Part shown: piece by piece, positions 486 through 14,378 of the stretch
Layout of the letters: every line of letters begins with the position of its first letter
Numbering within the stretch: the stretch's first letter is position 1
Assembly (NCBI GenBank): GCA_945836355.1
Contig: CAMALD010000007.1
Span: forward strand, 1 to 14,378
Direction of reading: 5' to 3'
Length of the DNA stretch: 14,378 nucleotides
Source: an uncultured Lachnospiraceae bacterium
GTDB taxonomy: Bacteria; Bacillota; Clostridia; Lachnospirales; Lachnospiraceae
Translations under genes and position numbers: made by a program
Notes under the pieces: model-generated
What the model saw: the letters and a program-made list of their open reading frames with translations, nothing else
Database searches by the model: none
What the model was told of the DNA's origin: nothing

Positions 486-501
486 AAGAGGTGGATGTAC
501 G

Positions 502-769: not shown

Positions 770-771
770 AT

Positions 772-843: not shown

Positions 844-884
844 CGGATGCCGCACATGCTCCAATCGGGCACATGCGGCATCCG
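844..884. repeat. perfect 10-bp inverted repeat (strong hairpin) downstream of tldE
   Basis: CGGATGCCGC (844-853) and GCGGCATCCG (875-884) are perfect complements. With two mismatches the pairing continues inward to 15-base arms and a 9-base loop. It lies 58 bases beyond the tldE stop on the minus strand. Neither side has a T-run, so it is not a standard intrinsic terminator. It could protect the 3' end or be a dispersed palindromic repeat. It also sits at the junction with the GNAT fragment. Confidence 0.6.
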
Positions 885-941
885 TCTCCGGCCATTCCTA
901 CTCATCCTCCGGAATCATCTCCAGCCATTTCCACTTCTTTC

Positions 942-2222: not shown

Positions 2223-2248
2223 AGTTGCTGTTCCTTTCGCTATATCTG

Positions 2249-2263
2249 TTGCGATTATCGCAA
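2249..2263. promoter_or_regulatory. 6-3-6 palindrome upstream of tldE
   Basis: TTGCGATTATCGCAA is a perfect 6-bp inverted repeat with a 3-base centre, 27 bases upstream of the tldE start. In RNA it could be a small hairpin in the tldD-tldE spacer; in DNA it could be an operator. A TTGACA occurs further upstream on the minus strand in the same 144-base gap, but no good -10 is paired with it, so a separate tldE promoter is not established. Confidence 0.35.
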
Positions 2264-2366
2264 TATTGATTCCTAATTTTTGGGGCTATCGTTTCTGTCA
2301 ATTACCTATCGTTCGGCTGTTTCCGCCTTTGCAGACCTGTCCGGCCTTCCCGGATTATGCTCTGCA

Positions 2367-3788
2367 TCAGCCCAGCCGAATTCTGGCTTTTATGTATGGA
2401 CCGCCGTCCGACACCTTGACCCATTCCTTGTAGCCCTTACCGCACATGCCGCTTCCGCCAAGCTTCACCTCATCCGACACCATGCTGATGGATTTCAACA
2501 GATCCGGCACATACCCGGTGAGTACAATCGGCGAACAGATTCTGCCCGTCAGCTTGCCGTCCTTAATCTCACGCGCAATGCTGACCATGCACTGAATCCC
2601 CCAGTTTTTCGGATCCTCCATGCCGCTGGATGCCTCCTCGAGCAAGAATCCGTAGGAAATGGAGGCAATCATATCCTCTACCTTGTCCTTGCCTGCCTCA
2701 AAGAAGGTATTGGTCATACGGGTGTATGCCTTTCTCGAATAGCTCTCGCGGCGCCCGTTTCCGGTCGGCTGAGTACCCAGATGCATCGCAGACTGCGCAT
2801 CGCTGATGCCTGCCTTTAAGATACCGTGATCAATCACAAGCGTATCCTGCGCAAGCACTCCCTCATCATCAAAGAAATACGATGCCACCTCGCGTGCCGC
2901 CAAAGCGCCGTCATGCATATTCACCAGCTCGGATGCCACCTGTTTTCCCACAAACTGCTTTGCCAGCGCGCGATCCTTCACGAACATATCCATCTCCACG
3001 CCGTGCCCGAATGCCTCGTGTACAATCATACCCGTCACACCCGGCTCACAGATGCAGTCATACTCTCCCGGCACCATCGGCTCGCTCTCCAAAAGGTCAA
3101 GCGCCGTCTGAGCCACCTTATTCACATTGTCGCTCATTTCCTTCAAAATCTCGACTCCGCCGAGATTGGAAAATCCGCGGTAGCTGTCCTTTACTTCTTC
3201 GCCGCGTGTTGCCATTGCCACAATTCCACCGCAGGTCCACAACACATTCTGCTCCATGTCACGATTCTTTGACAAAAAGAGCTTGCTGTATTTCTGATAG
3301 CTGGCAAATGCGCGGCAATCTAAGATTTTGTCGCTGTATGCACGTCCTGCCTCGCTGAGCTTCGTCAGCTCACCCATAATCGACTCGTCCCCATATTCCT
3401 TCGGGTCTATCTCATAATCGGTACTGTCCGAAAATACCATCGGCTCATCCGCAAGCATCGCGTAACAGCTCTTCTTCACGCCCTCCGGCAGCTTATCGGA
3501 AAGCGGCATCAGATCCTCGCGGATATGTACGGCGATTTCCTCGATGGTATCCTCTGAAATCTCATTGAAGGAATACTCCGCATAACTGCTTCCATCGAAC
3601 ACCTTCACTACAAAGCCGCGCTCCGGCTTCATCGAAATGCCCGAGCTTGTCTTGGACACACTGTAGTTCTTTGTCACGGAATCCTGCGCCAGAATCGACG
3701 CATACGGGTATTCCTGCAGCAGCCGGTCACGGAGCTTTACCAGCACCGGCTTAACCTTTCGTAAATATTCACTTGAATTAACCTTCAT
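2367..3788 (-). CDS. tldD: TldD-like zinc metalloprotease, catalytic subunit
   Basis: The 473-residue product is full length for TldD. The zinc motif HEAFGH lies at residues 257-262 within GMIVHEAFGHGVEMD, and the family's C-terminal cysteine ligand is present at C449 in GSGMCGKGY. Together these give the H-E-xxx-H plus Cys site of this peptidase family (U62/M103). The preceding domain (about 1-240) is the substrate-chamber fold shared with TldE. The start at 3788 is set by a near-perfect GGAGGA seven to eight bases upstream, which overlaps the stop of the SCP2 gene and implies translational coupling. The partner tldE follows. The operon contains both subunits of the protease plus the SCP2 protein. 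The call is secure; the natural substrate is unknown. Confidence 0.92.
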   Translation of the reverse strand: MKVNSSEYLRKVKPVLVKLRDRLLQEYPYASILAQDSVTKNYSVSKTSSGISMKPERGFVVKVFDGSSYAEYSFNEISEDTIEEIAVHIREDLMPLSDKLPEGVKKSCYAMLADEPMVFSDSTDYEIDPKEYGDESIMGELTKLSEAGRAYSDKILDCRAFASYQKYSKLFLSKNRDMEQNVLWTCGGIVAMATRGEEVKDSYRGFSNLGGVEILKEMSDNVNKVAQTALDLLESEPMVPGEYDCICEPGVTGMIVHEAFGHGVEMDMFVKDRALAKQFVGKQVASELVNMHDGALAAREVASYFFDDEGVLAQDTLVIDHGILKAGISDAQSAMHLGTQPTGNGRRESYSRKAYTRMTNTFFEAGKDKVEDMIASISYGFLLEEASSGMEDPKNWGIQCMVSIAREIKDGKLTGRICSPIVLTGYVPDLLKSISMVSDEVKLGGSGMCGKGYKEWVKVSDGGPYIKARIRLG

Positions 3789-3797
3789 GACTTCCTC

Positions 3798-4121
3798 CTA
3801 TTTTAGCTTAATCTTACTAAGCAGAACAAGCTTATCCCGGTTGCCTTCTATGCGAAGGCTGCCGTTTTCTATCGCTTCCTTCGCCGTTATTTTCCCCGCA
3901 GCGATTGCGATATAGGTGCTTGCATCCGCAGTCAGCAGACCATCTCTGTCTACATAATCGTATGGCTCCACGCAAACGCTCCGCTCGGCCACTTCAATGT
4001 AAAACGCACCGCTGCCTTCGCCAACGATGTTTGCCTGCACCGCAACATGCTCATAGATTTCTCTTGCATCTGCATTTTCAAGACCTTCTCTGACCTTTAA
4101 TACAACCTCTTCATACGTCAT
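3798..4121 (-). CDS. SCP2 sterol-binding-like domain protein
   Basis: This 107-residue single-domain protein has the SCP2-like C-terminal signature: AGKITAKEAIENGSLRIEGN followed by a short amphipathic tail. Earlier parts include GAFYIEVAERSVCVEPY and TADASTYIAIAAG, typical of the SCP2 beta-sheet. SCP2 domains bind hydrophobic ligands in a tunnel; in bacteria the ligand is usually unknown. The start at 4121 has AGGAGG about 10 bases upstream. Its TAG stop is contained in the ribosome site of tldD (gap 9 bases), making it the first gene of the SCP2-tldD-tldE operon. That linkage hints that it may help recognise a hydrophobic or modified substrate, but this is inference. Confidence 0.75.
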   Translation of the reverse strand: MTYEEVVLKVREGLENADAREIYEHVAVQANIVGEGSGAFYIEVAERSVCVEPYDYVDRDGLLTADASTYIAIAAGKITAKEAIENGSLRIEGNRDKLVLLSKIKLK

Positions 4122-4204
4122 AACCGCTCGCCCTCCTTACTGTTTTGTACAATTCATGAAACCCTGATTCCGGGTAATCAAATGAACCTCTTCCTTATAC
4201 TATC

Positions 4205-4210
4205 ATTATA
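4205..4210 (-). promoter_or_regulatory. possible -10 element for the SCP2-tldDE operon
   Basis: The minus strand reads TATAAT at 4210-4205, 84 bases upstream of the SCP2 gene, directly next to hairpin 3 of repeat copy A. No convincing -35 lies 16-18 bases upstream, so this is a weak call. A second AT-rich candidate (TATAAG, 4199-4194) is equally poor. Confidence 0.25.
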
Positions 4211-4211
4211 A

Positions 4212-4336
4212 TATCATGTGATTTCATCACATGATACACTCCGTGGGATGCGCACGATTCGGCGATGTACTTTCACTCGCGTTGCTCGTGACCGATTCGG
4301 CGCCGGTATAATGTGTTCCTTCGCACACATTATACC
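4212..4336 (-). repeat. structured intergenic repeat, copy A
   Basis: Read on the minus strand this holds, in order: a 12-bp perfect hairpin (4336-4325 with 4316-4305, 8-base loop); a GC-rich part with two direct copies of CGCCGAATCG (4302-4293 and 4264-4255) around GAGCAACGCGAGTGAAAG; the core GTGCGCATCC (4255-4246); a mini-hairpin CAC-GGA-GTG (4245-4237); and a 10-bp perfect hairpin (4236-4227 with 4221-4212, 5-base loop). Core, mini-hairpin and last hairpin occur in the same contiguous order in copy B. It fills most of the gap between the membrane protein gene and the SCP2 operon, so it could also shape 3' or 5' ends there. Confidence 0.6.
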
Positions 4337-4404
4337 ATATTTATACCTATATGTCATGTTAATTTATCCTTAAGTTTCTGAACTTTCTCCGCTCTCCTGC
4401 CCCT

Positions 4405-5814
4405 CTACTCCGTTTCCTGCACAGACCCGCGCAGGCTCTCATACAGCGCAAGGGTATCGGCATCCTCCGCCCCGCTCATGTAATATAGCGTATCCTCCGC
4501 CATAAAGGTCAGAAAATACTGATTTTCCGGATTCAAAAACACCTGACAGTCACTGCCGTAGGTTACATGAAAGCTTCCCTTATAAAGCCGGTCCATCGCC
4601 GTGCCGCTGTACTTGGAAAGTGCCGGAAGCTCAGTAATCAGCTCCAGCTTTGTGATCTCATCCACCGGAATCTCGTAATCCGTGTTCAGCTGCTCGGCTA
4701 CCAGCTGCCGGTTTTCCAGACTTAGCTGAATCGGAGTAAACTCCAGCAGAATCATCCAGATACACACCACCGGCAAAAGAAGTATCATCAGTGCGGCAAA
4801 TATCTCCAGCCCCTTGCCAAGCGGTGTCGCCAGATTCATCGATGTGCCTATGCCAAAGCGCGCCTCCACCATCGCATGCTTATCCTGCCTGTTGTAATAC
4901 AGCATGCCCCAAATCCAGTGGTCATCATCATCCGGCAGCAGGTCTTCCTCCCGTTTCTCTTTGTACTTTCCCTCCAGCTCCTGCACCTTTTTAACAGCGA
5001 TGAAAACCGCAGCCAGCAGAATCAATGAATAAAGGATGCTTCCGGTCAGAATCGTCGTGCCGACCGGCGCACCGGCTCCTAACAATACCGCACACACCAG
5101 CGTAAATAAGGTATTCATCCAGGCACAAAACAGCCAGAGATTTTTCCAGAGGTTTTTCTTTGCCCGCGCAAAATTCCGGTTAACTTCGCTGTCCGCACTG
5201 ATGACCATCACCTTCTGGCGGTCCATCCAGAGCGCGACAAGATAATACAGCACGGTCATTACCGCAAAGGTATCAATGACAAAGGACAGGGCTCCGGCAT
5301 AGCTTCCGCGAAAATGCAGCGTGTAGTACACCCCCGTCACAATACTTACCAATATCGGCAACAGAAACGACACCGGCCGCACCCGGCGCACCTTGCCGGC
5401 CTCCTTCAGCTCGGTGAGGCAGTTATCCGCAAATGCCTCCATCCTGTGCTGCTTTTTCCACAGCTTCAACGCTTGGTGGGAATGGATATACGGCAGCATC
5501 ATAACGCCCAGAAACCCGATAAGCCAAAGCATCCATATGGTAAAACCTATCGACATGCTCGGAATCAGAAAGGTGACAAGCGGAATCCAGAACATACCGA
5601 GCAGACAGCGCTTCATTCTGCGCCTAAACAGAACCTCCTGCTCCTTCACCAGCCCAAGGAACTCCTGCCGCAGCGCTTCATCCTTCGGCGCGCGCAATCC
5701 GAAATAAATACCCTTTTTCTGCATATTCTCATCCGCGCAAAAGCTTTTGTATACGAAAAACACAATGAAAATAACCGGATACATGGTAATCAATAAAATT
5801 ATATTCATCATCAT
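4405..5814 (-). CDS. multi-pass membrane protein with DUF5808-like segment
   Basis: The 469-residue protein has about eight hydrophobic spans, near residues 4-22, 69-87, 89-109, 148-166, 174-197, 225-246, 251-275 and 335-357. A cytosolic-looking linker at about 297-325 reads DDHWIWGMLYYNRQDKH and EARFGIGTSMN, the DUF5808 pattern. The last 110 residues form a soluble domain. Such proteins are commonly encoded directly after a YtrA/YhcF-type GntR regulator, as here (49-base gap). The regulator and membrane protein probably form one operon, and the role may be envelope stress or transport, which is inference. Three ATG codons are stacked at 5814, 5811 and 5808; AAGGAG sits about 6 bases before the first, so the second or third has the more usual spacing. 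Confidence 0.7.
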   Translation of the reverse strand: MMMNIILLITMYPVIFIVFFVYKSFCADENMQKKGIYFGLRAPKDEALRQEFLGLVKEQEVLFRRRMKRCLLGMFWIPLVTFLIPSMSIGFTIWMLWLIGFLGVMMLPYIHSHQALKLWKKQHRMEAFADNCLTELKEAGKVRRVRPVSFLLPILVSIVTGVYYTLHFRGSYAGALSFVIDTFAVMTVLYYLVALWMDRQKVMVISADSEVNRNFARAKKNLWKNLWLFCAWMNTLFTLVCAVLLGAGAPVGTTILTGSILYSLILLAAVFIAVKKVQELEGKYKEKREEDLLPDDDDHWIWGMLYYNRQDKHAMVEARFGIGTSMNLATPLGKGLEIFAALMILLLPVVCIWMILLEFTPIQLSLENRQLVAEQLNTDYEIPVDEITKLELITELPALSKYSGTAMDRLYKGSFHVTYGSDCQVFLNPENQYFLTFMAEDTLYYMSGAEDADTLALYESLRGSVQETE

Positions 5815-5863
5815 AGCTTCTCCTTTTCTACGCTACACTCTCCGCTATTTCTGCCACGCGCGG

Positions 5864-6241
5864 CTAATCCGTCCGACCGCTCTGATATATCCTGCTGCAT
5901 TCCTCCAGAAATGCCTTCTCCGAAATACCCGCCAGCTTTGCCTCCGAAATCAGCCGCCGCAGCATTTCACGGTTTTCCTGCGTCAGCTCTCCCGCATCCC
6001 GGAAGCTGCCGGCAACCTTCGCACCGTTTCTGCGGTCGGTCGTGATATAGCCCTGCAGCTTTAACAGCTGATATGCTTTGTTCACCGTCATGGAATTGAT
6101 GCCGATTTCCGCAGCCAGCGCACGTACCGTCGGCAGCGCCTCACCCGGCTGCAGTCTGCCGTCCGAAATCCCCATGACAATCTGATCGCGGATCTGCTGA
6201 TAAATCGGTACCTCCGAGCCATCCCTGATTGCAATAACCAT
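5864..6241 (-). CDS. GntR-family (YtrA-like) transcriptional repressor
   Basis: Starting at 6241, the 125-residue protein opens VIAIRDGSEVPIYQQIRDQI and has a GntR winged helix at about 10-78 (PGEALPTVRALAAEIGINS, then NKAYQLLKLQGYI). Only a short C-terminal tail follows, as in the YtrA subfamily, which lacks a large ligand-binding domain. The longer reading from 6304 adds 21 hydrophobic, unlikely residues. AAGGAG lies 8 bases before the 6241 ATG, and the promoter and operator occupy 6254-6304, so the short start is preferred. It precedes the membrane protein gene. The nested palindrome across its own promoter implies autoregulation. The inducer cannot be read from the sequence. Confidence 0.85.
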   Translation of the reverse strand: MVIAIRDGSEVPIYQQIRDQIVMGISDGRLQPGEALPTVRALAAEIGINSMTVNKAYQLLKLQGYITTDRRNGAKVAGSFRDAGELTQENREMLRRLISEAKLAGISEKAFLEECSRIYQSGRTD

Positions 6242-6253
6242 CCCGCCATCTCC

Positions 6254-6304
6254 TTTTGTATGATTTGTATTATATATAATAATACACGCAATACAAAATG
6301 TCAA
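6254..6304 (-). promoter_or_regulatory. promoter of the gntR operon embedded in a nested dyad operator
   Basis: On the minus strand TTGACA (6304-6299), 17 bases, then TATTAT (6281-6276) is a near-consensus promoter. An inner inverted repeat, TGTATTAT (6266-6273) and ATAATACA (6279-6286), and an outer one, TTTTGTAT (6254-6261) and ATACAAAA (6291-6298), share the centre 6276. The inner repeat resembles YtrA-type GntR operators. A bound regulator would cover the spacer, the -10 and the start point. Confidence 0.7.
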
Positions 6305-6327
6305 GAGAATTTCTTCTCACGAATGTC

Positions 6328-7659
6328 TCACGGTACCAGCCGGTGGATGTCCCGTGGAAACAGAGTGGTGCTGCGCACATTTTCAAATCCCAAAAGTCTG
6401 GCGGTAAAACGCTCAAGTCCCAGCCCGAGTCCTCCATGCGGCGGCATTCCGTATTTGTGCATCATCAGATAGCTCTCAAACAGCTCCGGATGCATCCCCC
6501 GGCGCAGCAGCTTTTCTACCTGGGCCGGATAGGAATGAATCCGCTGCCCTCCGGTAGTAATTTCAAGTCCGCGAAACAATAGGTCAAAGCTTAAGGTTTC
6601 CGAAGGATTCTCCGGATTTTCCATCGCATAAAACGGGCGCTTACTGCTTGGATAGTGGGTTACAAAGACAAATTCACTTCCGGTTTCTTTTTGCACGAGT
6701 TCACATAACAGGCGTTCCTCCTCCGGCTCAAAATCCGTGGTATCGGTTATCGGACGGTGATATGCCTGTGAAATCCATTGCTTTGCCTCCGAAAAACGAA
6801 TCTGCGGTGGCTCATGAAGCTTAGGCAGCCTGCAGTTAAGCAGGGCAAGCTCCGCTGCGGAATGCTCCGTTAAATAAGCAAAGGTAAACTGCAGCATGCG
6901 GCTTTCCATTGTCATGATTTCTTCAAAGCTCTCAATGTATCCCATTTCAAAGTCCACACTTGTATATTCATTGAGATGCCGGGAGGTGTCGTGCTTTTCC
7001 GCGCGGAACACAGGCGCAATCTCAAAAACACGCTCAAATACGCCCACCATCATCTGCTTGTAAAACTGCGGGCTCTGCGCGAGGTATGCCTCCTTGTCGA
7101 AGTAAGGCAGCTTAAAGATATTGGCGCCACCCTCCGCCCCGGCTGCAACAATCTTTGGTGTGTGAATCTCTGTAAATTTTTCCGAGATCAAAAAGGCACG
7201 AAACGCCTCACAGATGACCGCCTGAATGCGAAAAACAGCTCTCTCCTTCTCGTTTCTAAGAGTGATTGGCCGGTAGTTTAACAGATTTTCCAGCGAAGTA
7301 TTTACCTGCTTTTGATTGATAACAACGGGTACTGTCTCTTCCGGTACAGATAAAACGGTTACCTCCCTAAGGTGCAGCTCATAGCCGCTGCGGGAGCGCT
7401 CCTCCGCAGCCACCAGTGCAGTAAAGCGGACACAGCTTTCCTCCGGAATGGCTTCCAGAGAAAAATCTGCCTCTTCTTCGCTGTACACGCACTGTATCAC
7501 CGCACTCCCCGTGCGAAGCAAAACAAACGCAAACCCACTCATATGGCGAATTTTATATATGCTGCCGTGAATCTGCACAACCTCCCCGATATGGTTTTTC
7601 AGCTCTTCTGCCGCAACCTCCTGATTTGAATGAAAGTTCTTATAATTTATTGTTTTCAT
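6328..7659 (-). CDS. aspS: archaeal-type aspartyl-tRNA synthetase (AspRS, possibly non-discriminating)
   Basis: This class IIb synthetase is about 443 residues, the archaeal AspRS length, without the bacterial GAD insertion. An OB-fold anticodon-binding domain (about 20-105) precedes the catalytic core. Motif 1 is around FTEIHTPKIVAAGAEGG (162-178), motif 2 is FRAEKHDTSRHLNEYTS (218-234), and motif 3 is GLGLGLER (410-417). It charges Asp onto tRNA(Asp) and, if non-discriminating, onto tRNA(Asn) for amidation by GatCAB; that distinction cannot be settled here. The start at 7659 is chosen because AGGAGG lies about 8 bases upstream. An in-frame extension to 7740 begins with TTG and has no ribosome site. 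A long leader with a candidate Asp/Asn-responsive attenuator lies upstream. Confidence 0.85.
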   Translation of the reverse strand: MKTINYKNFHSNQEVAAEELKNHIGEVVQIHGSIYKIRHMSGFAFVLLRTGSAVIQCVYSEEEADFSLEAIPEESCVRFTALVAAEERSRSGYELHLREVTVLSVPEETVPVVINQKQVNTSLENLLNYRPITLRNEKERAVFRIQAVICEAFRAFLISEKFTEIHTPKIVAAGAEGGANIFKLPYFDKEAYLAQSPQFYKQMMVGVFERVFEIAPVFRAEKHDTSRHLNEYTSVDFEMGYIESFEEIMTMESRMLQFTFAYLTEHSAAELALLNCRLPKLHEPPQIRFSEAKQWISQAYHRPITDTTDFEPEEERLLCELVQKETGSEFVFVTHYPSSKRPFYAMENPENPSETLSFDLLFRGLEITTGGQRIHSYPAQVEKLLRRGMHPELFESYLMMHKYGMPPHGGLGLGLERFTARLLGFENVRSTTLFPRDIHRLVP

Positions 7660-7713
7660 AATGTGACCTCCTGAAATTATGTAGTTGTTGTTTTTGTTAT
7701 TTTGTTGTTTCAT
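7660..7713 (-). other. in-frame Asn-rich upstream segment overlapping the aspS ribosome site
   Basis: From an ATG at 7713 the minus strand reads MKQQNNKNNNYIISGGHI in frame into aspS, with four Asn codons in six (AAT AAC AAA AAC AAC region). The aspS ribosome site GGAGG is inside it. No Shine-Dalgarno precedes 7713, so translation from there is doubtful. The segment may simply be an A-rich, unstructured ribosome-loading region. Confidence 0.3.
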
Positions 7714-7812
7714 TTTTTTGTTCGCAAAATACTGAAACAAGCTCTTGTGTTTGCTTAGTTTTTCACCGACCTGTCTTTGCTGTGAGCACTGTTTTCAGCT
7801 TTATATCCATAC

Positions 7813-7831
7813 GGACATCATCCTTATGTCC
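7813..7831. repeat. small hairpin in the aspS leader
   Basis: GGACAT (7813-7818) and ATGTCC (7826-7831) form a 6-bp stem with a 7-base loop. Between aspS (7659) and repeat copy B (about 7880) I see no gene; a short open frame on the minus strand across here lacks recognisable protein features. Confidence 0.35.
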
Positions 7832-7879
7832 CATCCGATCACGACCTTTCCATGTCATATTTTCGCTTCCTATACGAGA

Positions 7880-8008
7880 ACAAGGAATTTCGCTTGCGAA
7901 ACTCCGACGCCGCTTTTGCATCGCTTCAGCGAAAAGATTCCGATGCAAAAGCGTGCGCATCCCCCGGAGGGTTTGTCGTGTTGGAAACACAGTTATCTAC
8001 ACGACAAA
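7880..8008 (+). repeat. structured intergenic repeat, copy B
   Basis: On the plus strand: a small TTTCGC-TT-GCGAAA hairpin (about 7888-7901); a perfect 12-bp hairpin GCTTTTGCATCG (7912-7923) with CGATGCAAAAGC (7941-7952); the core GTGCGCATCC (7953-7962); a mini-hairpin CCC-GGA-GGG (7963-7971); and a 10-bp hairpin TTTGTCGTGT (7972-7981) with ACACGACAAA (7999-8008). The order and abutment match copy A while the stems differ in sequence. It lies antisense within the aspS leader, and its last arm overlaps the T-run of the attenuator terminator. Confidence 0.6.
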
Positions 8009-8039
8009 AAAACCACACTGGTACCTCCATACCGTGTGG
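8006..8039 (-). terminator. intrinsic terminator (attenuator) in the aspS leader
   Basis: On the minus strand CCACACGGTA (8039-8030) pairs with TACC-A-GTGTGG (8023-8013), with one bulged base and a six-base loop, followed directly by seven T residues (8012-8006). It lies about 200 bases after the leader promoter and 347 bases before aspS, with no full gene between. Its 5' arm can instead pair with an upstream segment, described in the attenuator entry. Confidence 0.8.
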
Positions 8040-8136
8040 CTAAATACAATGCTTCCCAATCGTATTCATCTATCTATCCACACAGGCACAACACGAACAG
8101 CGCTTGTACCTGTGTATCCTACGCAGCTACAAGCGC
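8032..8136 (-). promoter_or_regulatory. candidate ribosome-mediated attenuator with chained alternative RNA pairings
   Basis: Minus-strand segments are: 1, GCGCUUGUA (8136-8128), overlapping the last leader codons and stop; 2, ACACAGGUACAA continuing to GCGC (8115-8100); 3, UUGUGCCUGUGUGG (8091-8078); 4, CCACACGGUA (8039-8030); 5, the 3' terminator arm. Pairing 1:2 is 9 perfect bp, 2:3 is 12 bp with one U-G, 3:4 is 8 bp with one U-G, and 4:5 is the terminator. Neighbouring pairings exclude one another. A ribosome held at Asn or the first Asp codon leaves segment 1 free, giving 1:2 and 3:4 and read-through. A ribosome at the stop codon masks segment 1 but ends near segment 2, giving 2:3 and termination. 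The sequence facts are direct; the mechanism is inferred. Confidence 0.65.
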
Positions 8137-8183
8137 AATCGATCGTCGTCCCTGTTTGCAATAAACGAAAAGAAAGCCTTCAT
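8127..8183 (-). CDS. putative 18-residue leader peptide with Asn-Arg-Asp-Asp-Asp, upstream of aspS
   Basis: The minus-strand ORF reads MKAFFSFIANRDDDRLRL and ends at TAG. It starts about 25 bases after the predicted transcription start, with GAGG 9 bases before the ATG (a second GAGG lies closer). The AAC codon is at 8156-8154 and the GAC GAC GAT run at 8150-8142. Hairpin segment 1 begins six bases after the last Asp codon. The gene downstream encodes a synthetase that makes Asp-tRNA, so the codon content matches the expected sensor, as Phe codons do in the leader of E. coli pheST. Three Phe codons also occur but lie too far upstream to control segment 1 well. The peptide itself probably has no function. 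Confidence 0.65.
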   Translation of the reverse strand: MKAFFSFIANRDDDRLRL

Positions 8184-8214
8184 AATCCTCAACCTCATCT
8201 TAAATATTGAGAGC

Positions 8215-8243
8215 ATTCTATCAGAAGTAATCCGATATTGCAA
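8215..8243 (-). promoter_or_regulatory. promoter of the aspS leader transcript
   Basis: On the minus strand TTGCAA (8243-8238) is followed by exactly 17 bases and TAGAAT (8220-8215). The predicted start is near 8208. It diverges from the perR promoter, whose -35 begins 37 bases away. Confidence 0.75.
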
Positions 8244-8279
8244 GGAAATTTTTAAACATAACCAAATAAATAATATATC

Positions 8280-8309
8280 TTGACAAACACCCCTTTTCTG
8301 TTATATATT
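8280..8309 (+). promoter_or_regulatory. promoter of the perR-like gene
   Basis: TTGACA (8280-8285) is followed by 18 bases and TATATT (8304-8309). It ends 5 bases before the shared 15-bp operator, the same geometry as in the rubrerythrin promoter. Confidence 0.7.
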
Positions 8310-8314
8310 TTAAA

Positions 8315-8329
8315 TAGTAACAGTTATCA
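8315..8329 (+). promoter_or_regulatory. candidate PerR operator at the perR-like gene
   Basis: TAGTAACAGTTATCA (7-1-7 layout) matches the rubrerythrin site CAGTAATAGTTACTG at 11 of 15 positions, including AGTAA and AGTTA, and lies at the predicted start point. Its own dyad is imperfect. Its place upstream of the regulator suggests autoregulation. Confidence 0.6.
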
Positions 8330-8353
8330 ATATTATTTGAAGTGAGGTAAAAC

Positions 8354-8755
8354 ATGGCAACAATTAAGTACAGCAGACAGCGCCAGTCCATCAAGGACTA
8401 TCTGATGAGTACAAAGGAGCACCCCACCGCAGACATGATATACTCGCATGTGCGCGAAGAGTACCCGAGCATCAGCCTGGGTACCGTCTACCGAAACCTT
8501 AATTTTCTTGTATCGCAGGGCGAGGCGATACGCCTGACCTGTGGTGACGGCAGTGAGCATTACGATGGAAACACCACAAAGCATTATCATCTGTTATGCA
8601 GCGGATGTAACCGTGTGGTGGACCTGACGATGGACCCGCTCGACCACATCGATACCCTCGCAGCGGTTAATTTTGACGGTATCATCGAGGGACACACCGT
8701 ACTGTTCCGCGGAAAATGTCCGGAATGTGCAAAGCAGACCAGAACCTCTGCTTAA
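8354..8755 (+). CDS. perR: PerR-like Fur-family peroxide-sensing repressor
   Basis: This 133-residue protein has the Fur fold: an N-terminal winged helix with HPTADMIYSHVREEYPSISL and GTVYRNLNFL, then a dimerisation domain. Structural zinc cysteines are C82/C85 (CSGC) and C122/C125 (CPEC). The regulatory-metal ligands of B. subtilis PerR have counterparts at H23, D71, H77, H79 and D90. An Asp at position 71, where Fur has Glu, favours PerR. PerR senses peroxide through iron-catalysed histidine oxidation and then releases its targets. GTGAGG lies about 7 bases before the ATG. The next gene is a rubrerythrin bearing the same operator, which supports a peroxide role. Fur or Zur cannot be fully excluded. 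Confidence 0.8.
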   Translation: MATIKYSRQRQSIKDYLMSTKEHPTADMIYSHVREEYPSISLGTVYRNLNFLVSQGEAIRLTCGDGSEHYDGNTTKHYHLLCSGCNRVVDLTMDPLDHIDTLAAVNFDGIIEGHTVLFRGKCPECAKQTRTSA

Positions 8756-8795
8756 GCTCCTCACCCGGACAACACATCTTTACAGTCATTAAAAA

Positions 8796-8818
8796 TTTTT
8801 TCAAAAACATTGAAAAAA
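8796..8818. promoter_or_regulatory. A/T-tract inverted repeat just upstream of the rubrerythrin promoter
   Basis: TTTTTTCAA (8796-8804) and TTGAAAAAA (8810-8818) form a 9-bp AT-only-like dyad ending four bases before the -35. Its position and composition suit an UP-element-like tract; as a hairpin it would be weak. Confidence 0.35.
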
Positions 8819-8822
8819 ACTA

Positions 8823-8871
8823 TTGACAAAATGATTTTACTTGTGTATTATTAAATCAGTAATAGTTACTG
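8823..8871 (+). promoter_or_regulatory. rubrerythrin promoter with PerR-type operator
   Basis: TTGACA (8823-8828), 17 bases, TATTAT (8846-8851) is a near-ideal promoter. CAGTAATAGTTACTG (8857-8871) is a palindrome with 6-bp perfect arms, starting 5 bases after the -10 and covering the predicted start point. A bound repressor should block transcription. Confidence 0.75.
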
Positions 8872-8967
8872 TTTTTAAAACAACAGGAACAACAACTGAA
8901 AGCTACAGGAAAAGCTACAAAATTATTCAAACAAAATTTTATTTCAAATATGAAAGGAGATTTCATT

Positions 8968-9510
8968 ATGGCAAAGTATGTATGTCCAGTTTGCGGTTAT
9001 GTTCACGAGGGAGATGAGGCACCTGAGCAGTGCCCGGTATGTAAGGCACCGGCTGAGAAGTTCAGCAAGGTAGAGGGTGAGAAGGTTTGGGCCTCCGAGC
9101 ATGTAGTCGGCGTTGCACAGGGCGTCAGCGAGGATATCATCGCAGATCTGAGAGCAAATTTTAACGGCGAGTGCACTGAGGTCGGTATGTATCTTGCAAT
9201 GGCAAGAGTTGCTCACAGAGAGGGCTATCCGGAGATTGGTATGTACTATGAGAAGGCTGCCTTCGAGGAGGCTGAGCACGCTGCAAAGTTTGCAGAGCTT
9301 TTGGGTGAGGTAGTAACCAACAGCACCAAGAAGAACCTTGAGCTTCGTGTTGAGGCTGAAAACGGCGCAACCGCAGGAAAAACCGACCTTGCAAAGCGTG
9401 CTAAGGCAGCAAACCTTGATGCAATCCATGACACGGTTCATGAGATGGCTCGTGATGAGGCTAGACACGGCAAAGCATTCGAGGGACTCCTGAAGAGATA
9501 CTTCAACTAA
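8968..9510 (+). CDS. reverse rubrerythrin (N-terminal rubredoxin, C-terminal diiron domain)
   Basis: The 180-residue protein starts [15 protein letters not shown], with rubredoxin iron ligands C6, C9, C22 and C25. A four-helix diiron domain follows, with E68, an E-x-x-H at 101-104 (EAEH) and another at 164-167 (EARH). The rubredoxin is at the N-terminus, as in the clostridial reverse rubrerythrins; classical rubrerythrin has it at the C-terminus. These enzymes reduce hydrogen peroxide, and in Clostridium acetobutylicum they belong to the PerR regulon. The 8968 start is preferred over 8950 because AAGGAG lies 8 bases upstream; it would otherwise fall inside the coding sequence. The regulator gene lies 212 bases upstream and carries the same operator. 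Confidence 0.9.
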
Positions 9511-9526
9511 TACCCCTCGGAAATTA

Positions 9527-9543
9527 TCACTGTAATTCAGTGA
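9527..9543. repeat. small hairpin after the rubrerythrin gene
   Basis: TCACTG (9527-9532) and CAGTGA (9538-9543) form a 6-bp stem with a 5-base loop, 17 bases after the stop. Only ATTTT follows seven bases later, so terminator function is doubtful. Confidence 0.3.
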
Positions 9544-9551
9544 AGTCATTT

Positions 9552-9596
9552 TCACAAAAGTCTGTACCCGCTTATGAAAGTGACAGACTTTTGTGA
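9552..9596. repeat. perfect 14-bp inverted repeat between rubrerythrin and pflB
   Basis: TCACAAAAGTCTGT (9552-9565) and ACAGACTTTTGTGA (9583-9596) pair perfectly around a 17-base loop. There is no T-run after either arm. It may stabilise or end the rubrerythrin transcript, or be a dispersed repeat. It lies 42 bases before the pflB -35. Confidence 0.6.
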
Positions 9597-9638
9597 GTAC
9601 CTGAGCGATATTTCATAATTTACACGATACGGTATCAG

Positions 9639-9667
9639 TTGCAAAAAAGCAAACCGTATGCTATAAT
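9639..9667 (+). promoter_or_regulatory. strong promoter of pflB with extended -10
   Basis: TTGCAA (9639-9644), 17 bases, TATAAT (9662-9667), preceded by TGC, forms an extended -10 promoter. GATAC-G-GTATC (9626-9636) is a small palindrome just upstream. Two direct copies of CGCAATAA (9679-9686 and 9701-9708, 22 bp apart) lie in the 5' leader. No Rex-like TTGTTAA dyad was seen. Confidence 0.75.
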
Positions 9668-9728
9668 CTAACGCAGGGCGCAATAACCTAATATATTTTA
9701 CGCAATAAGTAAAGAAAGGATGAATACC

Positions 9729-11993
9729 ATGAGTAATTTTCAGGAATGGGAAGGCTTTGAAGGCCGTATCTGGAAAGACGAAGTAAATGTTCGTGACTTT
9801 ATCCAGAAGAACTACAAGCCATATGATGGTGATGAGAAGTTTTTGGCTGATCCGACCGAGGCTACCAACAAGCTTTGGGGCGCATTACAGAAGCTTCAGA
9901 AAGCAGAGCGCGACAAGGGCGGCGTTTTGGACTGTGAGACAGAGGTTGTATCCAGTCTTACCGCTTACGGTCCTGGATATATCGATGAGAACCTGAAGGA
10001 TCTTGAGCAGATCGTAGGTCTTCAGACCGACAAGCCGTTAAAGAGAGCATTCATGCCTTACGGCGGTATCAAGATGGCTGTGCAGGCTGCTGAGAGCTAC
10101 GGCTACGAGATCAATCCGGAGCTCAAGAAGATTTTCGAGACCTACACGACCACACACAACGATGCAGTGTTCTCCGCTTACACACCGGAGATGCTTCTTG
10201 CACGTAAGACACACGTTGTTACCGGTCTTCCGGATACTTACGGTCGTGGCCGTATCGTAGGCGACTATCGTCGTGTTGCTCTGTACGGTATCGATTACCT
10301 CATTCAGGCAAAAGAGAATGACAAGTTAAACTGCGGCTGCGGTAACATGTATGATGATGTTATCCGTCAGCGCGAAGAGATCGCTATGCAGATTAAGGCA
10401 TTGAAGGGCATGAAGGAAATGGCTAAGATTTACGGCTATGATATTTCCAGACCTGCTAAGAATGCAAAGGAAGCATGTCAGTGGCTCTACTTCGGCTACC
10501 TGGCTGCCATCAAGACACAGAACGGTGCTGCAATGTCCGTTGGACGCGTATCCACCTTCCTTGATATCTACTTCGAGCGTGACCTTAAGAACGGTGTACT
10601 TACCGAGTCTGAAGCACAGGAGCTCATCGACCATATGACCATGAAGTTCCGTATGGTTAAGTTCGCTCGTATTCCTTCTTACAACCAGCTCTTCTCCGGT
10701 GACCCTACCTGGGCTACTCTTGAGGTTGGTGGTATCGGTATGGACGGACGTCACATGGTTACCAAGACCGACTATCGTTTCCTTCATACTTTGGAGAACA
10801 TGGGACCGTCTCCGGAGCCGAACCTTACGGTTCTGTACTCCAGTGCTCTTCCGGAGCAGTTTAAGAAGTACGCTTCCCACATCTCCATCGAGACCAGCTC
10901 AATCCAGTATGAGAACGATGATGTTATGAAGCCGGTATGGGGCGATGACTACTCCATTTGCTGCTGTGTATCCGCTACACAGACCGGTAAGGAGATTCAG
11001 TTCTTCGGTGCTCGTGCTAACCTTGGTAAGACCTTGCTTTACGCTTTCAACGGCGGTTTCGATGAGAAGCATCGTATCCAGTGTGGTCCTAAGTATGAGA
11101 AAATCACAAAGGATGTTCTCAGCGGCGAGGAAGATTTCAAGATGGTTCGCGACAAGTACGAGATCTGGCTTGACTGGTGCGCAGATATCTACGTAAATGT
11201 ATTGAACCTTATCCACTATATGCATGATAAGTACTACTATGAGGCAGCTGAGATGGCTCTTATTGATACCGATGTACGTCGTACATTCGCTACCGGTATT
11301 GCAGGCTTCTCTCACGTAATCGACTCCTTAAGTGCTATCAGATATGCAAAGGTTACCGTAATTCGTGACGAAGAGGGCATCACAAAGGATTTCGTTGTTG
11401 AAGGCGATTTCCCTAAGTATGGTAACGATGATGACCGTGCCGATGAGATTGGTGTATGGCTTCTTAAGACCTTCGTTGAGAAGATTAAGCGTCGTCATAC
11501 TTACCGCAACTCCGAGCCGACCACTTCCCTGCTTACCATTACTTCGAACGTGGTATACGGCGAAGCTACAGGTGCTATGCCTAACGGACGTGCCGCATTC
11601 ACTCCATTCAGCCCGGGTGCTTCACCAAGCTACGGCGCAGAGACCAACGGTCTTGTTGCTTCCCTTAACTCTGTTGCTAAGATTCCGTATCACTGGTCTC
11701 TCGATGGTATTTCCAATACCCAGACCATCAACCCGGATGCACTTGGCCACAGCAAGGAAGAGCGCGTAGACAACCTTGTACAGGTTCTCGATGGTTACTT
11801 CGATCAGGGTGCACATCATCTGAATGTAAACGTATTCGGTACCGAGAAGCTGCTTGATGCACAGGCACATCCGGAGAAGGAAGAGTACGCTAACTTCACA
11901 ATCCGTGTATCCGGCTACGCTGTTAAGTTCATCAGCCTGACTAAGAAACAGCAGGATGACGTTATTGCAAGAACTTGCCATAAGTTCCGCTAA
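9729..11993 (+). CDS. pflB: pyruvate formate-lyase (formate C-acetyltransferase)
   Basis: The 754-residue protein is full length for PFL. The paired catalytic cysteines lie in [15 protein letters not shown] (C412/C413 before Val). The glycyl-radical loop near the C-terminus is [12 protein letters not shown] with G729. It converts pyruvate and CoA to acetyl-CoA and formate in the cytosol during fermentation, and the radical form is destroyed by oxygen. The start at 9729 has AAAGG 9 bases upstream; the ATG at 9720 abuts that site and is unusable. Codon choice suggests high expression, as does the extended -10 promoter. The activating enzyme gene follows after a strong terminator. Generic glycyl-radical diol dehydratases are excluded by overall similarity to PFL. 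Confidence 0.97.
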
Positions 11994-12029
11994 TAATTGC
12001 GTCATTGATTGGTTATACTAGTCAAAACG

Positions 12030-12069
12030 AAAGGGGATTTTGAACCTACAGTTCAAAATCCCCTTTTTT
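12030..12069 (+). terminator. intrinsic terminator between pflB and pflA
   Basis: AAGGGGATTTTGAA (12031-12044) and TTCAAAATCCCCTT (12052-12065) pair perfectly around a 7-base loop, extendable by one A-T. The 3' side ends in six T residues (12064-12069). It is 36 bases past the pflB stop and 48 bases before the pflA start. The A-rich 5' flank is short, so it is mainly plus-strand. No clear promoter follows, so pflA probably depends on read-through. Confidence 0.9.
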
Positions 12070-12117
12070 AAAATCAAAAGCAATGGCATTCACCCGCCTT
12101 GCAGAAATGAGGATATT

Positions 12118-12864
12118 ATGGAAGGAAGAATTCATTCATTAGAGTCTTTCGGTTTGGTAGACGGGCCGGGAGTCCGCTACGTCGTGTTTGTGCAGGGCTG
12201 CCGCATGCGCTGCAAATACTGTCACAACCCGGAAACCTGGAGCATGGAAGGCGGAGAAATCTGGACTGCCAAGGATTTGTTTGAAAGAGCATACCGTTAT
12301 AAATCCTATTGGATGAAAAACGGTAAATTGAACGGCGGCATCACTGTCAGCGGCGGCGAGCCTCTGTTACAGACCGAATTTGTCACCGAATTTTTCGGCT
12401 ATGCAAAGGAAAAAGGGATTCACACTACGTTAGATACCGCAGGCAATCCATTTACCATGGAGGAGCCGTATTTGAGCAAATTTAATAAACTGATGGAAGT
12501 AACCGATCTGATTATGCTGGATTTTAAAGAGATCGTCAATGACAAGCATAAGCAGCTGACCGGATGGGAAAACGAGAACATTATTCAGATGGCAAGATAT
12601 ATGTCGGATATGGGCAAGGATATGTGGATTCGCCATGTATTGGTACCCGGACTCACCGATGACGAGGAAGGCCTGTATATGCTTCGCGACCTGATTCGTG
12701 AGCTGAAGACCGTGCGCAAGGTTGAAATCCTGCCATACCATACCCTTGGACTGGCAAAATGGGACAAACTGAACATCAAGTATCCGCTGGAAGGCATCGA
12801 CCCGCCGACACCGGAGCAGGTAGCCCGCGCCGAAGAGATTCTGGAGGTTGACAAATATAATTAG
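12118..12864 (+). CDS. pflA: pyruvate formate-lyase activating enzyme (radical SAM)
   Basis: The 248-residue protein carries the radical-SAM cluster motif C28-x3-C32-x2-C35 (CRMRCKYC) and the SAM-binding GGE at ITVSGGEPLL. It also has the family start MEGRIHSLESFGLVDGPGVR. It uses a 4Fe-4S cluster and S-adenosylmethionine to abstract a hydrogen from the PFL glycine. The 12118 start is preferred because ATGAGGA gives a ribosome site about 7 bases upstream and matches the family N-terminus. The in-frame ATG at 12040 lies inside the terminator hairpin. No separate promoter is apparent in the 48 bases after the terminator, so expression is likely lower than pflB, which suits an enzyme needed in catalytic amounts. 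Confidence 0.95.
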   Translation: MEGRIHSLESFGLVDGPGVRYVVFVQGCRMRCKYCHNPETWSMEGGEIWTAKDLFERAYRYKSYWMKNGKLNGGITVSGGEPLLQTEFVTEFFGYAKEKGIHTTLDTAGNPFTMEEPYLSKFNKLMEVTDLIMLDFKEIVNDKHKQLTGWENENIIQMARYMSDMGKDMWIRHVLVPGLTDDEEGLYMLRDLIRELKTVRKVEILPYHTLGLAKWDKLNIKYPLEGIDPPTPEQVARAEEILEVDKYN

Positions 12865-12897
12865 TTCCGCTCGTCTGCACAATACAACAACCGGGCG

Positions 12898-12918
12898 AGG
12901 GACAGCCCATCCCTTTTT
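12898..12918 (+). terminator. weak terminator after pflA
   Basis: AGGGA (12898-12902) and TCCCT (12910-12914) form a 5-bp stem ending in five T residues. An alternative GGGC/GCCC pairing overlaps it. It is 33 bases beyond the pflA stop and 7 bases before the 3' end of the convergent glycosylase gene. Confidence 0.45.
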
Positions 12919-12924
12919 GGCAGC

Positions 12925-13434
12925 TTAAGGATTCGTTGATTTTGGAATCAACGGCGCAATCTCATCCTCCCATGCTTTTACCAGTTTCTCCACCGACCAC
13001 GCGGCGTTTGCCGGGCTGGTCGATGGCAGCTTAACCGCATCCTTGCCTGTCTGCGGGCGGATGTATCTGCAGTACAGCTCATATGCCTTTGTACCGTTGC
13101 AGTAAATCTGCCGGATATCTGCAGCATTCAGTATGCCGGAAATATCATTTGCAACCACGTTTGTAATGGAAGAATCCGATGAGCCCTCGATTTCGCAGGA
13201 GGCAATCACATCCCACACCGCAATATGTGAATTTAGAAGCAGTTGTTTCTTTTCCTCGATATTCTGCGGTTCTGTTTCCCCGGCAAGCCGCGCAATGACC
13301 TTCCAGAAACGGTTTTGCGGATGCCCGTAAAAGAACATCTGCTCGCGCGATTTTACTGACGGAAACGACCCTAAAATCAATACCTTGGATTGCTCATCAA
13401 AAACCGGAGCAATCGGATGCTGTACTTTTTCCAA
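12925..13434 (-). CDS. DNA-deoxyinosine glycosylase (uracil-DNA glycosylase superfamily, family-6-like)
   Basis: The 169-residue protein belongs to the UDG superfamily. It has GSFPS (22-26), then FYGHPQNRFW (35-44) with the conserved Asn, and the second motif LPSTSPANA (136-144). This combination marks hypoxanthine-DNA glycosylases (family 6), which remove deaminated adenine to start base excision repair. Family 4/5 iron-sulphur cysteines are absent. The start is a TTG at 13434 with GGGAGG 7 bases upstream; the next in-frame Met is residue 33, past the first motif, so TTG is needed. It converges with pflA. A hairpin lies in its 5' region. Mug-like (TDG/MUG) assignment is the main alternative. 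Confidence 0.8.
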   Translation of the reverse strand: MEKVQHPIAPVFDEQSKVLILGSFPSVKSREQMFFYGHPQNRFWKVIARLAGETEPQNIEEKKQLLLNSHIAVWDVIASCEIEGSSDSSITNVVANDISGILNAADIRQIYCNGTKAYELYCRYIRPQTGKDAVKLPSTSPANAAWSVEKLVKAWEDEIAPLIPKSTNP

Positions 13435-13457
13435 AACGTTACCTCCCTTGAGACCAC

Positions 13458-13491
13458 GCCTCTTCTGTTGGCAGACAGGAGAGGCATTTTT
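13458..13491 (+). terminator. plus-strand terminator-like hairpin between the glycosylase and GNAT genes
   Basis: GCCTCTTCTGT (13458-13468) and ACAGGAGAGGC (13475-13485) form an 11-bp stem with one T-G pair and a 6-base loop, followed by ATTTTTATTT. The T-run is on the plus strand, yet the genes on both sides run minus. It would end plus transcripts reading antisense through the glycosylase gene. On the minus strand it is a hairpin in the 5' leader of that gene, without a T-run. Confidence 0.5.
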
Positions 13492-13497
13492 ATTTCT

Positions 13498-13959
13498 TCA
13501 CTTGGTTTCTTTCATATACATCCTCGTCATTGTCGGCTCGCCGTCGCCCTGCACCATGCACAGGAACTTCCAGCCATAGCGCTCATAAAACGAGGTATGC
13601 CCGGTAATCAAATATAAGGTCTCGATGCCTCTTTCCTTCATGTCATCACATACAAACTGCAGCATCTTCCCTGCAATTCCGCGGCAGCGGTATTCCTCAT
13701 TCACGTACACCGCGCACACATTTGGCGTCAAATCCTTTCTGTCGTGAAAATCATTCTCAATCACGCCAAGCCCGCCAATCATTTTGTCCCCATCCAGCAC
13801 AATGTACCACTGCGGCACCGCACTTTTAAGTTTTAAGCAATCTTCCATACTCTCAAGATAAGCTTCTTTTGGGATGCCCCACCTTTCATGGAACCATCCC
13901 GCCATCTCTTCCTTTAATTCCGGTCTGTCAACCAGTCTCACTATGCTATAATCACTCAT
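13498..13959 (-). CDS. GNAT-family N-acetyltransferase
   Basis: This 153-residue single-domain GNAT has the acetyl-CoA binding motif A at residues about 82-101 (CAVYVNEEYRCRGIAGKML, with R91, R93, G94 and A96 forming the R-x-x-G-x-A loop). It also has the motif B region HTSFYERYGWKFL (121-133). The substrate is unknown; small amines, antibiotics or protein N-termini are all acetylated by members. The ATG at 13959 has only a distant AAAGGA (about 13 bases away), so initiation may be weak. A TATAAA (13991-13986) with CTGAAA 16 bases upstream could be the promoter, and CTGAAA belongs to the last unit of the tandem repeat there. Confidence 0.8.
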   Translation of the reverse strand: MSDYSIVRLVDRPELKEEMAGWFHERWGIPKEAYLESMEDCLKLKSAVPQWYIVLDGDKMIGGLGVIENDFHDRKDLTPNVCAVYVNEEYRCRGIAGKMLQFVCDDMKERGIETLYLITGHTSFYERYGWKFLCMVQGDGEPTMTRMYMKETK

Positions 13960-14005
13960 GTTTATTCTAATTTCCTTTTGTTAATTTTATAGTGCCCTGT
14001 TTTGC

Positions 14006-14060
14006 TATTTCAGTGTTATTTCAGTGTTATTTCAGTGTTATCTCAATGCTATTTCAGCAT
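14006..14060. repeat. five tandem 11-bp repeats upstream of the GNAT gene
   Basis: TATTTCAGTGT occurs three times exactly (14006-14016, 14017-14027, 14028-14038), then TATCTCAATGC and TATTTCAGCAT. The period of 11 bp is close to one helical turn. On the minus strand each exact unit reads ACACTGAAATA. The last two units also contain a 6-bp hairpin, AATGCT (14045-14050) with AGCATT (14056-14061). They sit between the ABC exporter stop and the probable GNAT promoter. Confidence 0.85.
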
Positions 14061-14105
14061 TCTATCATCACGCATGCATTCGTTCTGCCGTCAAAACACA
14101 AGCCA

Positions 14106-14378
14106 TTACGAAGCCTCTCCGATATATTTTCCTGCCTGTGCATGCCACATCTGAGCATACTTTCCGTCCATTGCCAGCAGCTCCTCATGCGTTCCCTGCT
14201 CAATAATACGTCCCTTTTCCAACATAAAAATGCGGTCGGCATTTCTAGTAGTGGACAGTCGGTGGGAAATATAGAACACCGTCTTGTTCTTTGCCGCTTC
14301 ATGCATTGCCTTATTCAAATTGTACTCTGCAATCGGGTCCAGCGCACTGGATGGTTCATCCATCGCGAGAATGTCCGC
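14106..14378 (-). CDS. ABC exporter ATP-binding domain, C-terminal part (5' truncated by window)
   Basis: The frame enters from the window edge reading [20 protein letters not shown], which is Walker B plus D-loop. It continues to the switch histidine in VFYISHRLS and ends [20 protein letters not shown] with MWHAQAGKY. This is the last 90 residues of the nucleotide-binding domain of a type-IV (MsbA/LmrA-like, subfamily B) exporter; the membrane domain, Walker A and signature lie outside. The TAA at 14106 ends the gene. ATG codons inside the visible part are not true starts. The substrate cannot be inferred. It is followed by the 11-bp repeats and the GNAT gene on the same strand. Confidence 0.88.

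Follow-up and report, generated by a model that had tools for sequence, protein, structure and literature searches.

Leader-peptide attenuation is a textbook regulatory device of Proteobacteria, and Clostridia are thought to use mostly T-boxes. In Escherichia coli, ribosome stalling on the pheST leader masks segment 1 of a four-segment switch. Additionally, an auxiliary indolmycin-resistant TrpRS is under ribosome-mediated attenuation, and aspS2-gatCAB of Clostridium acetobutylicum is T-box controlled. In this study, we analyzed a stretch of 14,378 nucleotides (nt) from an uncultured Lachnospiraceae bacterium (assembly GCA_945836355.1, contig CAMALD010000007.1, positions 1 to 14,378; hereafter the window), in which a candidate leader-peptide attenuator lies on the minus strand upstream of a gene encoding an aspartyl-tRNA synthetase (AspRS). 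An initial annotation of this DNA had proposed a sensor of Asp and Asn that controls aspS.

The candidate resembles pheST in its leader peptide, cognate codons, alternative pairings, and tRNA synthetase target, but differs in amino acid and phylum; moreover, stalling on the Asp leader would expose segment 1, and a fifth segment completes the terminator. The traits of the trp/pheST type found here were an open reading frame (ORF) with cognate codons, mutually exclusive helices with an intrinsic terminator, and a match between codons and gene. The four-segment layout of that type was not found, segment 1 lying after the control codons and the 3:4 helix being the antiterminator. In the excerpts of the cited papers on which we draw, trpS and leuS attenuators were reported in Streptomyces (PMC1262725). 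Together with the auxiliary TrpRS, they share with our locus a synthetase attenuator, in one case of an extra copy, and differ in their Trp and Leu codons and in belonging to Actinobacteria. The uORFC-8-2 motif before cysS in Rhodobacterales has tandem cognate codons, a U-run terminator, and predicted attenuation; it differs by Cys codons inside the first stem, by its occurrence in Alphaproteobacteria, and by a third helix described in the excerpt as rare and without covariation (PMC8632094). His-leader attenuators have been predicted for hisZ and a hisS paralogue in bacilli (PMC2965389), as well as for his operons of the Bacillus cereus group, Peptostreptococcaceae with Lutispora, and Erysipelotrichales (PMC9413887); neither Asp, Asn, or Pro versions nor an RNA core shared across amino acids appear in the excerpts of these two reports, and our set of His leaders may overlap with these earlier predictions. 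One of the three aspS genes of C. acetobutylicum is T-box regulated according to a figure legend of PMC2494555. The T-box of aspS2-gatCAB likewise acts on an archaeal-type AspRS (AspRS2) in Clostridia, but there the tRNA binds the RNA directly, and the element sits on another AspRS2 clade. The 5'-UTR of Shewanella aspS is listed as 'tRNA synthetase leader', with no peptide named in the excerpt (PMC2659441). An Asp leader peptide for AspRS was not found in the literature among the matches listed from open-licence papers. This kind of attenuator is known; what looks new is its Asp version, along with the logic of five segments and the family of codon-swapped relatives described below.

The features of the leader and its gene in the window are as follows.

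8215..8243, minus strand: promoter-like site TTGCAA-17-TAGAAT, matched at 9 of 12 positions, -10 element preceded by TG
8127..8183, minus strand: leader ORF of 18 codons, MKAFFSFIANRDDDRLRL then stop, read from the sequence
8156-8154, minus strand: Asn codon AAC of the leader ORF, read from the sequence
8142..8150, minus strand: control codons GAC GAC GAT (Asp), conserved across 79 leaders
8128..8136, minus strand: segment 1 (GCGCTTGTA), partner of segment 2
8099..8114, minus strand: segment 2 (CACAGGTACAAGCGCT), partner of segment 1 or 3
8078..8091, minus strand: segment 3 (TTGTGCCTGTGTGG), partner of segment 2 or 4
8030..8040, minus strand: segment 4, which forms the 5' arm of the terminator or, as 3' partner, pairs with segment 3
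8012-8023, minus strand: segment 5, 3' arm of the terminator, pairing with segment 4
8006-8012, minus strand: T run, which with segment 5 (8006..8023) makes up the intrinsic terminator
6328..7659, minus strand: regulated gene, archaeal-type aspartyl-tRNA synthetase (AspRS2), matched by NF003483 and TIGR00458

The 18-codon ORF, the GAC GAC GAT run, the pairing segments, the T-run terminator, and the synthetase gene were all located where the initial annotation had placed them, and the first base of segment 1 is, as it had said, the sixth one after the Asp run. In the alignment register, the window forms 13 of 15 pairs of helix 1:2, 11 of 11 of 2:3, 7 of 10 of 3:4, and 9 of 14 of 4:5. A simple terminator scan of the window missed the 8040-8012 terminator, probably because of an unpaired base in its stem.

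These features are most likely those of a ribosome-mediated transcription attenuator with a five-segment logic, which would sense Asp-tRNA(Asp) and control an extra archaeal-type AspRS; we assign this reading a probability of about 0.88. Transcription would start near 8208, and a ribosome would translate the 18-codon ORF. When Asp-tRNA is short, the ribosome would stall at the first Asp codons with its leading edge near the start of segment 1, so that 1:2 and then 3:4 could pair, the 4:5 terminator would be pre-empted, and AspRS2 would be made. When Asp-tRNA is ample, the ribosome would reach the stop codon and cover segment 1, 2:3 and 4:5 would pair, and transcription would end near 8006. A leader that is not translated is predicted to allow read-through, unlike that of trp. 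The leading edge of a ribosome lies about 15 nt beyond the start of its P-site codon; when the first Asp codon occupies the A site, this edge falls near the start of segment 1, and thus the geometry agrees with the proposed stall. Translation, stalling, termination, and induction of the leader are what we infer from this arrangement.

The strongest evidence for an attenuator is codon swapping that follows the downstream gene. Two models of the RNA core were used for the searches: R1 includes the codon region, and R2 covers segments 1-3 with no control-codon positions. At E <=0.001, R1 matched 23 of 397 genomes of the family, with 20 matches before AspRS2, two before bacterial-type AspRS (G662 and G601), and one in G433, where an Asn leader (MYYSVKCFHLNGNNN then stop; L153:705-1579, minus strand) was identified. 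Order-wide, 7 of 392 genomes were matched, namely five before AspRS2, one chance match, and G218, in which an HHHH leader precedes HisRS; in the family of G218, R2 matched this genome alone (1/22). At E <=0.01, R2 yielded matches in 32 of the 397 genomes of the family and in 17 of the 391 of the class. The 32 family genomes comprised the 23 of R1, two with a His leader before HisG (L184, assigned by NCBIfam, and L187, by eye), five chance-like matches, and two others (G526 and G576). L128 and L153 were included in R2 training, which makes their R2 scores circular, and both had first been found with R1 (E 0.0015 and 2.1e-10).

In the class set, R2 gave 18 sites outside the window, 14 of which had a leader ORF and a codon run just before segment 1. 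Twelve of these 14 runs match the downstream gene: His before HisRS (L193 and L203 by NCBIfam, L196 by eye), His before HisZ (L194, L199, and L204), Asn before AspRS (L190-L192, in genomes G1068, G951, and G912), Asp before AspRS2 (L195 and L197, by eye), and Pro before ProRS (L198). His leaders also precede genes for short proteins in G797 and G846 (L207 and L208); the stand-alone protein of L207 matches an HGTP anticodon domain (26 bits, cut-off 21), that of L208 is similar by eye, and this type of protein is perhaps a HisRS remnant or a regulator. Across the Asp, His, Pro, and Asn leaders, the control codons fit the regulated gene, with L153 and L202 as exceptions. L202 (G757) is a core match with E 9.8e-4 before a gene for a sodium-dependent transporter, and the sensed residue of its leader, MNYINNFNLKIQIFFNNHFR, is ambiguous. 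Chance matches were set aside for R1 (L129 and L135) and for R2 in the family (L183, L185, L186, L188, and L189); L200, L201, and L205 of the R2 class search were also treated as chance, at about the number that a search of 391 genomes at E 0.01 should give. Matches that were antisense shadows of true sites did not enter the counts.

Covariation of the alternative helices points in the same direction. The alignment consisted of 64 non-redundant leaders, obtained from 80 by dropping seven for length >215 nt and nine for similarity >=0.93. In these leaders, 91.3% of the cells of 1:2 plus 3:4 were paired, with changes on both sides in 16 of 25 pairs, and 90.6% of the cells of 2:3 plus 4:5, with changes on both sides in 18 of 25 pairs. 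By helix, both sides had changed in 9 of 15 pairs of 1:2, 7 of 10 of 3:4, 7 of 11 of 2:3, and 11 of 14 of 4:5, as expected from the initial annotation, which had named these four stems as ones that should covary. None of 500 shuffles reached any observed measure of covariation, a control that ignores relatedness and in which the structure was read from the same sequences. Slid registers were paired in at most 48.4% (1:2 plus 3:4) and 52.7% (2:3 plus 4:5) of cells.

The predicted switch was seen when folding was computed for RNA ended after segment 4, a truncation adopted after the result of full-length equilibrium folding (see below) was known. With segment 1 free, P(3:4) exceeded 0.5 in 56 of the 64 leaders, vs 8 with segment 1 masked, and P(2:3) exceeded 0.5 in 2 and 55 leaders, respectively; the 3:4 score was the better of two registers, and the second was picked for six leaders with a shifted register. 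In the window, P(3:4) before segment 5 fell from 0.93 to 0.12 upon masking. In the computed growing transcript, covering segment 1 replaces 3:4 by 2:3 as long as segment 5 has not been made. The minimum free energy (MFE) folds of 19 leaders, either variant or transplanted, changed in 17 cases from 1:2 and 3:4 to 2:3 on masking, and some 3:4-like pairs (0-7) persisted in the masked folds.

The leader ORF was surveyed in a list of homologues made up of the 80 best among at least 578 relatives, plus those from a further genome search; L109, which lacks upstream sequence, was dropped, as were nine distant loci and five loci that were second copies from contigs already represented. Named carriers of the leader include Fusicatenibacter saccharivorans (L032) and Anaerocolumna aminovalerica (L039). 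Three Asp codons near the end of a short ORF were found at 79 of the 95 loci examined upstream. The other loci were 12 of the gatCAB-type clade, L009 with GAC GAA GAT, and L033, L096, and L098 with too little upstream sequence, L098 showing the 3' part of a leader at a contig edge. Among the 83 close AspRS2 homologues, therefore, 79 have the three-Asp ORF and one has Asp-Glu-Asp, in agreement with the expectation that homologous leaders keep both the ORF and its Asp codons. The N-terminal residues of the peptide vary widely and the [N/H]RDDD core far less, and a Shine-Dalgarno-like stretch with an in-frame start is present in 76 of the 79 leader ORFs, the choice of ORF having preferred ATG and such a stretch. 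At the Asn-codon position, 60 of the 79 leaders have Asn, 14 His, and 5 another residue. The Asp half of the proposed Asp/Asn sensor is thus kept in all 79 leaders, and Asn as a sensed residue of leaders of the window type was rejected, being kept in just 60.

The promoter TTGCAA-17-TAGAAT is present as first annotated. This site is weak on its own, with five sites of such quality in the region vs 2.3 in shuffles; across homologues, a promoter-like site of >=9/12 within 110 nt of the leader ATG occurred in 52 of 63 cases vs 11.0 expected from base-composition shuffles, and in 39 of 62 the end of the best site lay 25-35 nt ahead of this ATG. A plasmid search with the leader sequence returned zero matches. 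In genome G011, element 2 (described below) and a terminator resembling segments 4-5 by eye were found with no leader match (L112, G011:C154:4171-4200); no close AspRS2 was found in this genome, and L112 is likely a remnant after loss.

The target gene encodes an AspRS, as annotated, although it is the archaeal-type extra copy instead of the housekeeping aspS. The window AspRS2 scored above both curated cut-offs (NF003483, 561 bits against 353; TIGR00458, 391 bits against 368.4), and its best PDB match was 1n9w. Among 21 genomes with the RNA core, AsnRS was above cut-off in 21, bacterial-type AspRS in 20, and GatB in 18 (in 19 if any match is counted). An AspRS gene follows the core in 19 of the 21 genomes, 18 of which have a separate, higher-scoring bacterial-type AspRS that we take as the housekeeping copy; the exception, G001, is 86% complete. 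On these gene counts, the leader-controlled AspRS is an apparent extra copy in 18 of 19 genomes. The seven housekeeping AspRS genes examined (L210-L214, L217, and L219) had no GACGACGAT and no UGGNACC within 450 nt upstream.

A second AspRS2 clade, with 52-57% identity to the window AspRS2, is located about 2 kb from gatB in eight genomes (G003, G029, G414, G530, G532, G601, G611, and G672). The T-box model matched three loci of this gatCAB type (L215, L216, and L218) with E values from 8e-18 to 3e-6, below the gathering score of 93 bits, and exceeded that score at 2 of the 12 loci of the clade (L010 and L011); read by position, the specifier would be AAC. In G530, the leader-linked AspRS2 appears split into two adjoining open frames of 261 and 218 aa (G530:C17:120124-121376), reflecting a frameshift or an assembly error.

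We also compared residues related to tRNA specificity. Non-discriminating AspRS presumably carry His and Pro at two tRNA(Asn)-tolerant positions. At these positions, leader-linked AspRS2 have Y plus K/R in 71 of 87 rows, five being second copies of one contig, and the discriminating Thermococcus enzyme has W/K. The window AspRS2 has Y and R, and so not H/P, despite exceeding the cut-off of TIGR00458, a model named non-discriminating. The gatCAB-type clade has H/P in 7 of 12 cases, like the non-discriminating Thermus enzyme. Among bacterial-type enzymes, the Asn-leader AspRS of L191 has RDHGG, shared with aligned PDB chains named Asp/Asn ligase (4rmf, 5w25, and 4wj3); the Asp-leader enzyme of L148 has NLGF, and the housekeeping enzyme of L210 has RNLGS. 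Asn codons thus seem to accompany a tRNA-Asn-tolerant look and Asp codons a tRNA-Asp-specific look, in few bacterial-type cases and provided that these residue rules hold.

Between the terminator and aspS, a 45-nt motif (element 2) was identified in 66 of 80 leaders. An extended Shine-Dalgarno stretch comes first, then the start codon (ATG or GTG), a hairpin of 6 bp closing a loop of 7 nt, and GGAT. In the window, element 2 has the following features.

7837..7850, minus strand: extended Shine-Dalgarno-like stretch GAAAGGTCGTGATC of the second ORF, ungapped consensus
7763..7834, minus strand: second short ORF, MGHKDDVRMDIKLKTVLTAKTGR then stop, with Asp at codons 5 and 10, from our own scan (66 of 80 leaders)
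7831-7813, minus strand: 6-bp hairpin just after the ATG of the second ORF, with a 7-nt loop

Asp is found at codon 5 (GAC 39, GAT 27) and at codon 10 (GAT 60, GAC 6) in all 66 copies, counts biased upward by a scan that demanded five of six pairs and rewarded the GA of codon 5 and GGAT. Both sides had changed in 5 of the 6 stem pairs among 58 non-redundant copies. A pattern search of 41 genomes with <=3 mismatches found element 2 in the window and G011 alone and missed divergent copies, such as that of G003; alifold gave a single hairpin only and no pairing with downstream sequence. The simplest guess is that element 2 is a second Asp-sensitive ORF. In L190-L192, three elements stand in tandem before a second bacterial AspRS, namely an Asn leader, a stretch resembling element 2, and a T-box, the last with E about 1e-18 and 89-91 bits vs the gathering score of 93. 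Two more hairpins at 7961-7884 (minus strand), between the terminator and element 2, were scored as terminator-like by the scan.

Several observations weigh against the attenuator. In full-length equilibrium folding, the terminator had P >0.5 in 60 of 64 leaders with segment 1 free and in 62 with it masked, and in the window with segment 1 free, 2:3 reached 0.88 vs 0.04 for 1:2; modeled in this way, the leader gives no switch. The finished transcript favours the terminator at equilibrium, and the decision must therefore be kinetic. In the truncated RNA, 3:4 was kept in 8 of 64 leaders despite the masked segment 1, and L053, L073, L080, L083, L088, and L100 stayed below P(3:4) 0.5 even with 1:2 formed. 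In the register of the alignment, six leaders (L077, L079, L081, L084, L086, and L095) form only 3-4 of the ten pairs that make up 3:4. The MFE folds of L128 and L193 show no switch, and in L128 (z -0.2) and L202 (z 0.7) the 3:4 duplex does not outdo shuffled sequences. The Asn leader of G433 (AAC AAT AAT) precedes a methylthioadenosine/SAH nucleosidase gene with no obvious logic, and 16 of 87 leader-linked AspRS2 rows lack Y plus K/R, eight having H first. In addition, the wobble bases of the Asp codons are near-invariant in the 79 leaders (GAC 78 at codon 1, GAC 74 at codon 2, and GAT 79 at codon 3) although the AspRS2 genes themselves mix GAT (434) and GAC (362), which indicates that something beyond codon identity is conserved; AGG is also conserved before, and often after, the Asp run.

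Conserved wobble bases, together with an R, an N/H, and a following R that are largely conserved with DDD, could be read as signs that the NRDDDR peptide, as a nascent chain, arrests or destabilises the ribosome and thereby senses a drug, Mg2+, or another signal, with the Asp codons being no gauge of Asp-tRNA. Acidic runs do destabilise translating ribosomes, which lends this idea some appeal. Nevertheless, we regard it as improbable: the same core occurs with His, Pro, and Asn runs before HisRS/HisZ/HisG, ProRS, and AspRS, an arrest peptide would not track the downstream amino acid, and the residues before the peptide core vary widely.

Slightly less probable still is a leader that binds a tRNA or a protein, be it as a variant T-box or for autoregulation by AspRS; the ORF would then be incidental and GACGACGAU an RNA recognition sequence. 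The invariance of AGGGACGACGAT at the nucleotide level would suit this reading, as would the usual presence of T-boxes here, including those carried by gatCAB-linked AspRS2 genes. However, a T-box in the window was rejected, since RF00230 gave no match there up to E 5; the in-frame start and the Shine-Dalgarno-like stretch (76/79) are kept while N-terminal codons diverge; and the codon-run swaps are in frame and matched to genes. An ordinary terminator of another transcript, with fortuitous ORF and pairings, would suit the equilibrium folds, in which the terminator wins, but is very improbable against four helices that covary if the alignment is right, a conserved ORF, and an enriched promoter just upstream.

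The attenuator reading of the initial annotation was thus supported overall, with the same core preceding matching genes under other codons, as judged from sequence comparison. Beyond the window, we consider it probable that the locus belongs to a previously undescribed family of codon-swappable attenuator cassettes of Clostridia. In such cassettes, the five-segment core would stay constant while the codons 4-8 nt upstream (Asp, Asn, His, or Pro) are exchanged to suit the gene, and a stalled ribosome would expose segment 1. The AspRS branch would arm a spare synthetase, with the second Asp-codon ORF and, in one family, the tandem T-box as further sensors. If true, Clostridia would have a second general sensor of charged tRNA, with Asp, His, Asn, and Pro versions on one core, and AspRS2 might be a backup enzyme that is induced under starvation or in the presence of AspRS inhibitors. 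The sister versions would be natural codon-swap experiments, and genomes with both sensors could be compared side by side.

Additionally, a gene for a Fur/PerR-like regulator (8354-8755, plus strand; 103.6 bits, below the family cut-off) is located divergently from the leader promoter. Beyond it lie a rubrerythrin-like gene, also below cut-off, and an ORF of 757 aa with the look of a pyruvate formate-lyase by eye.
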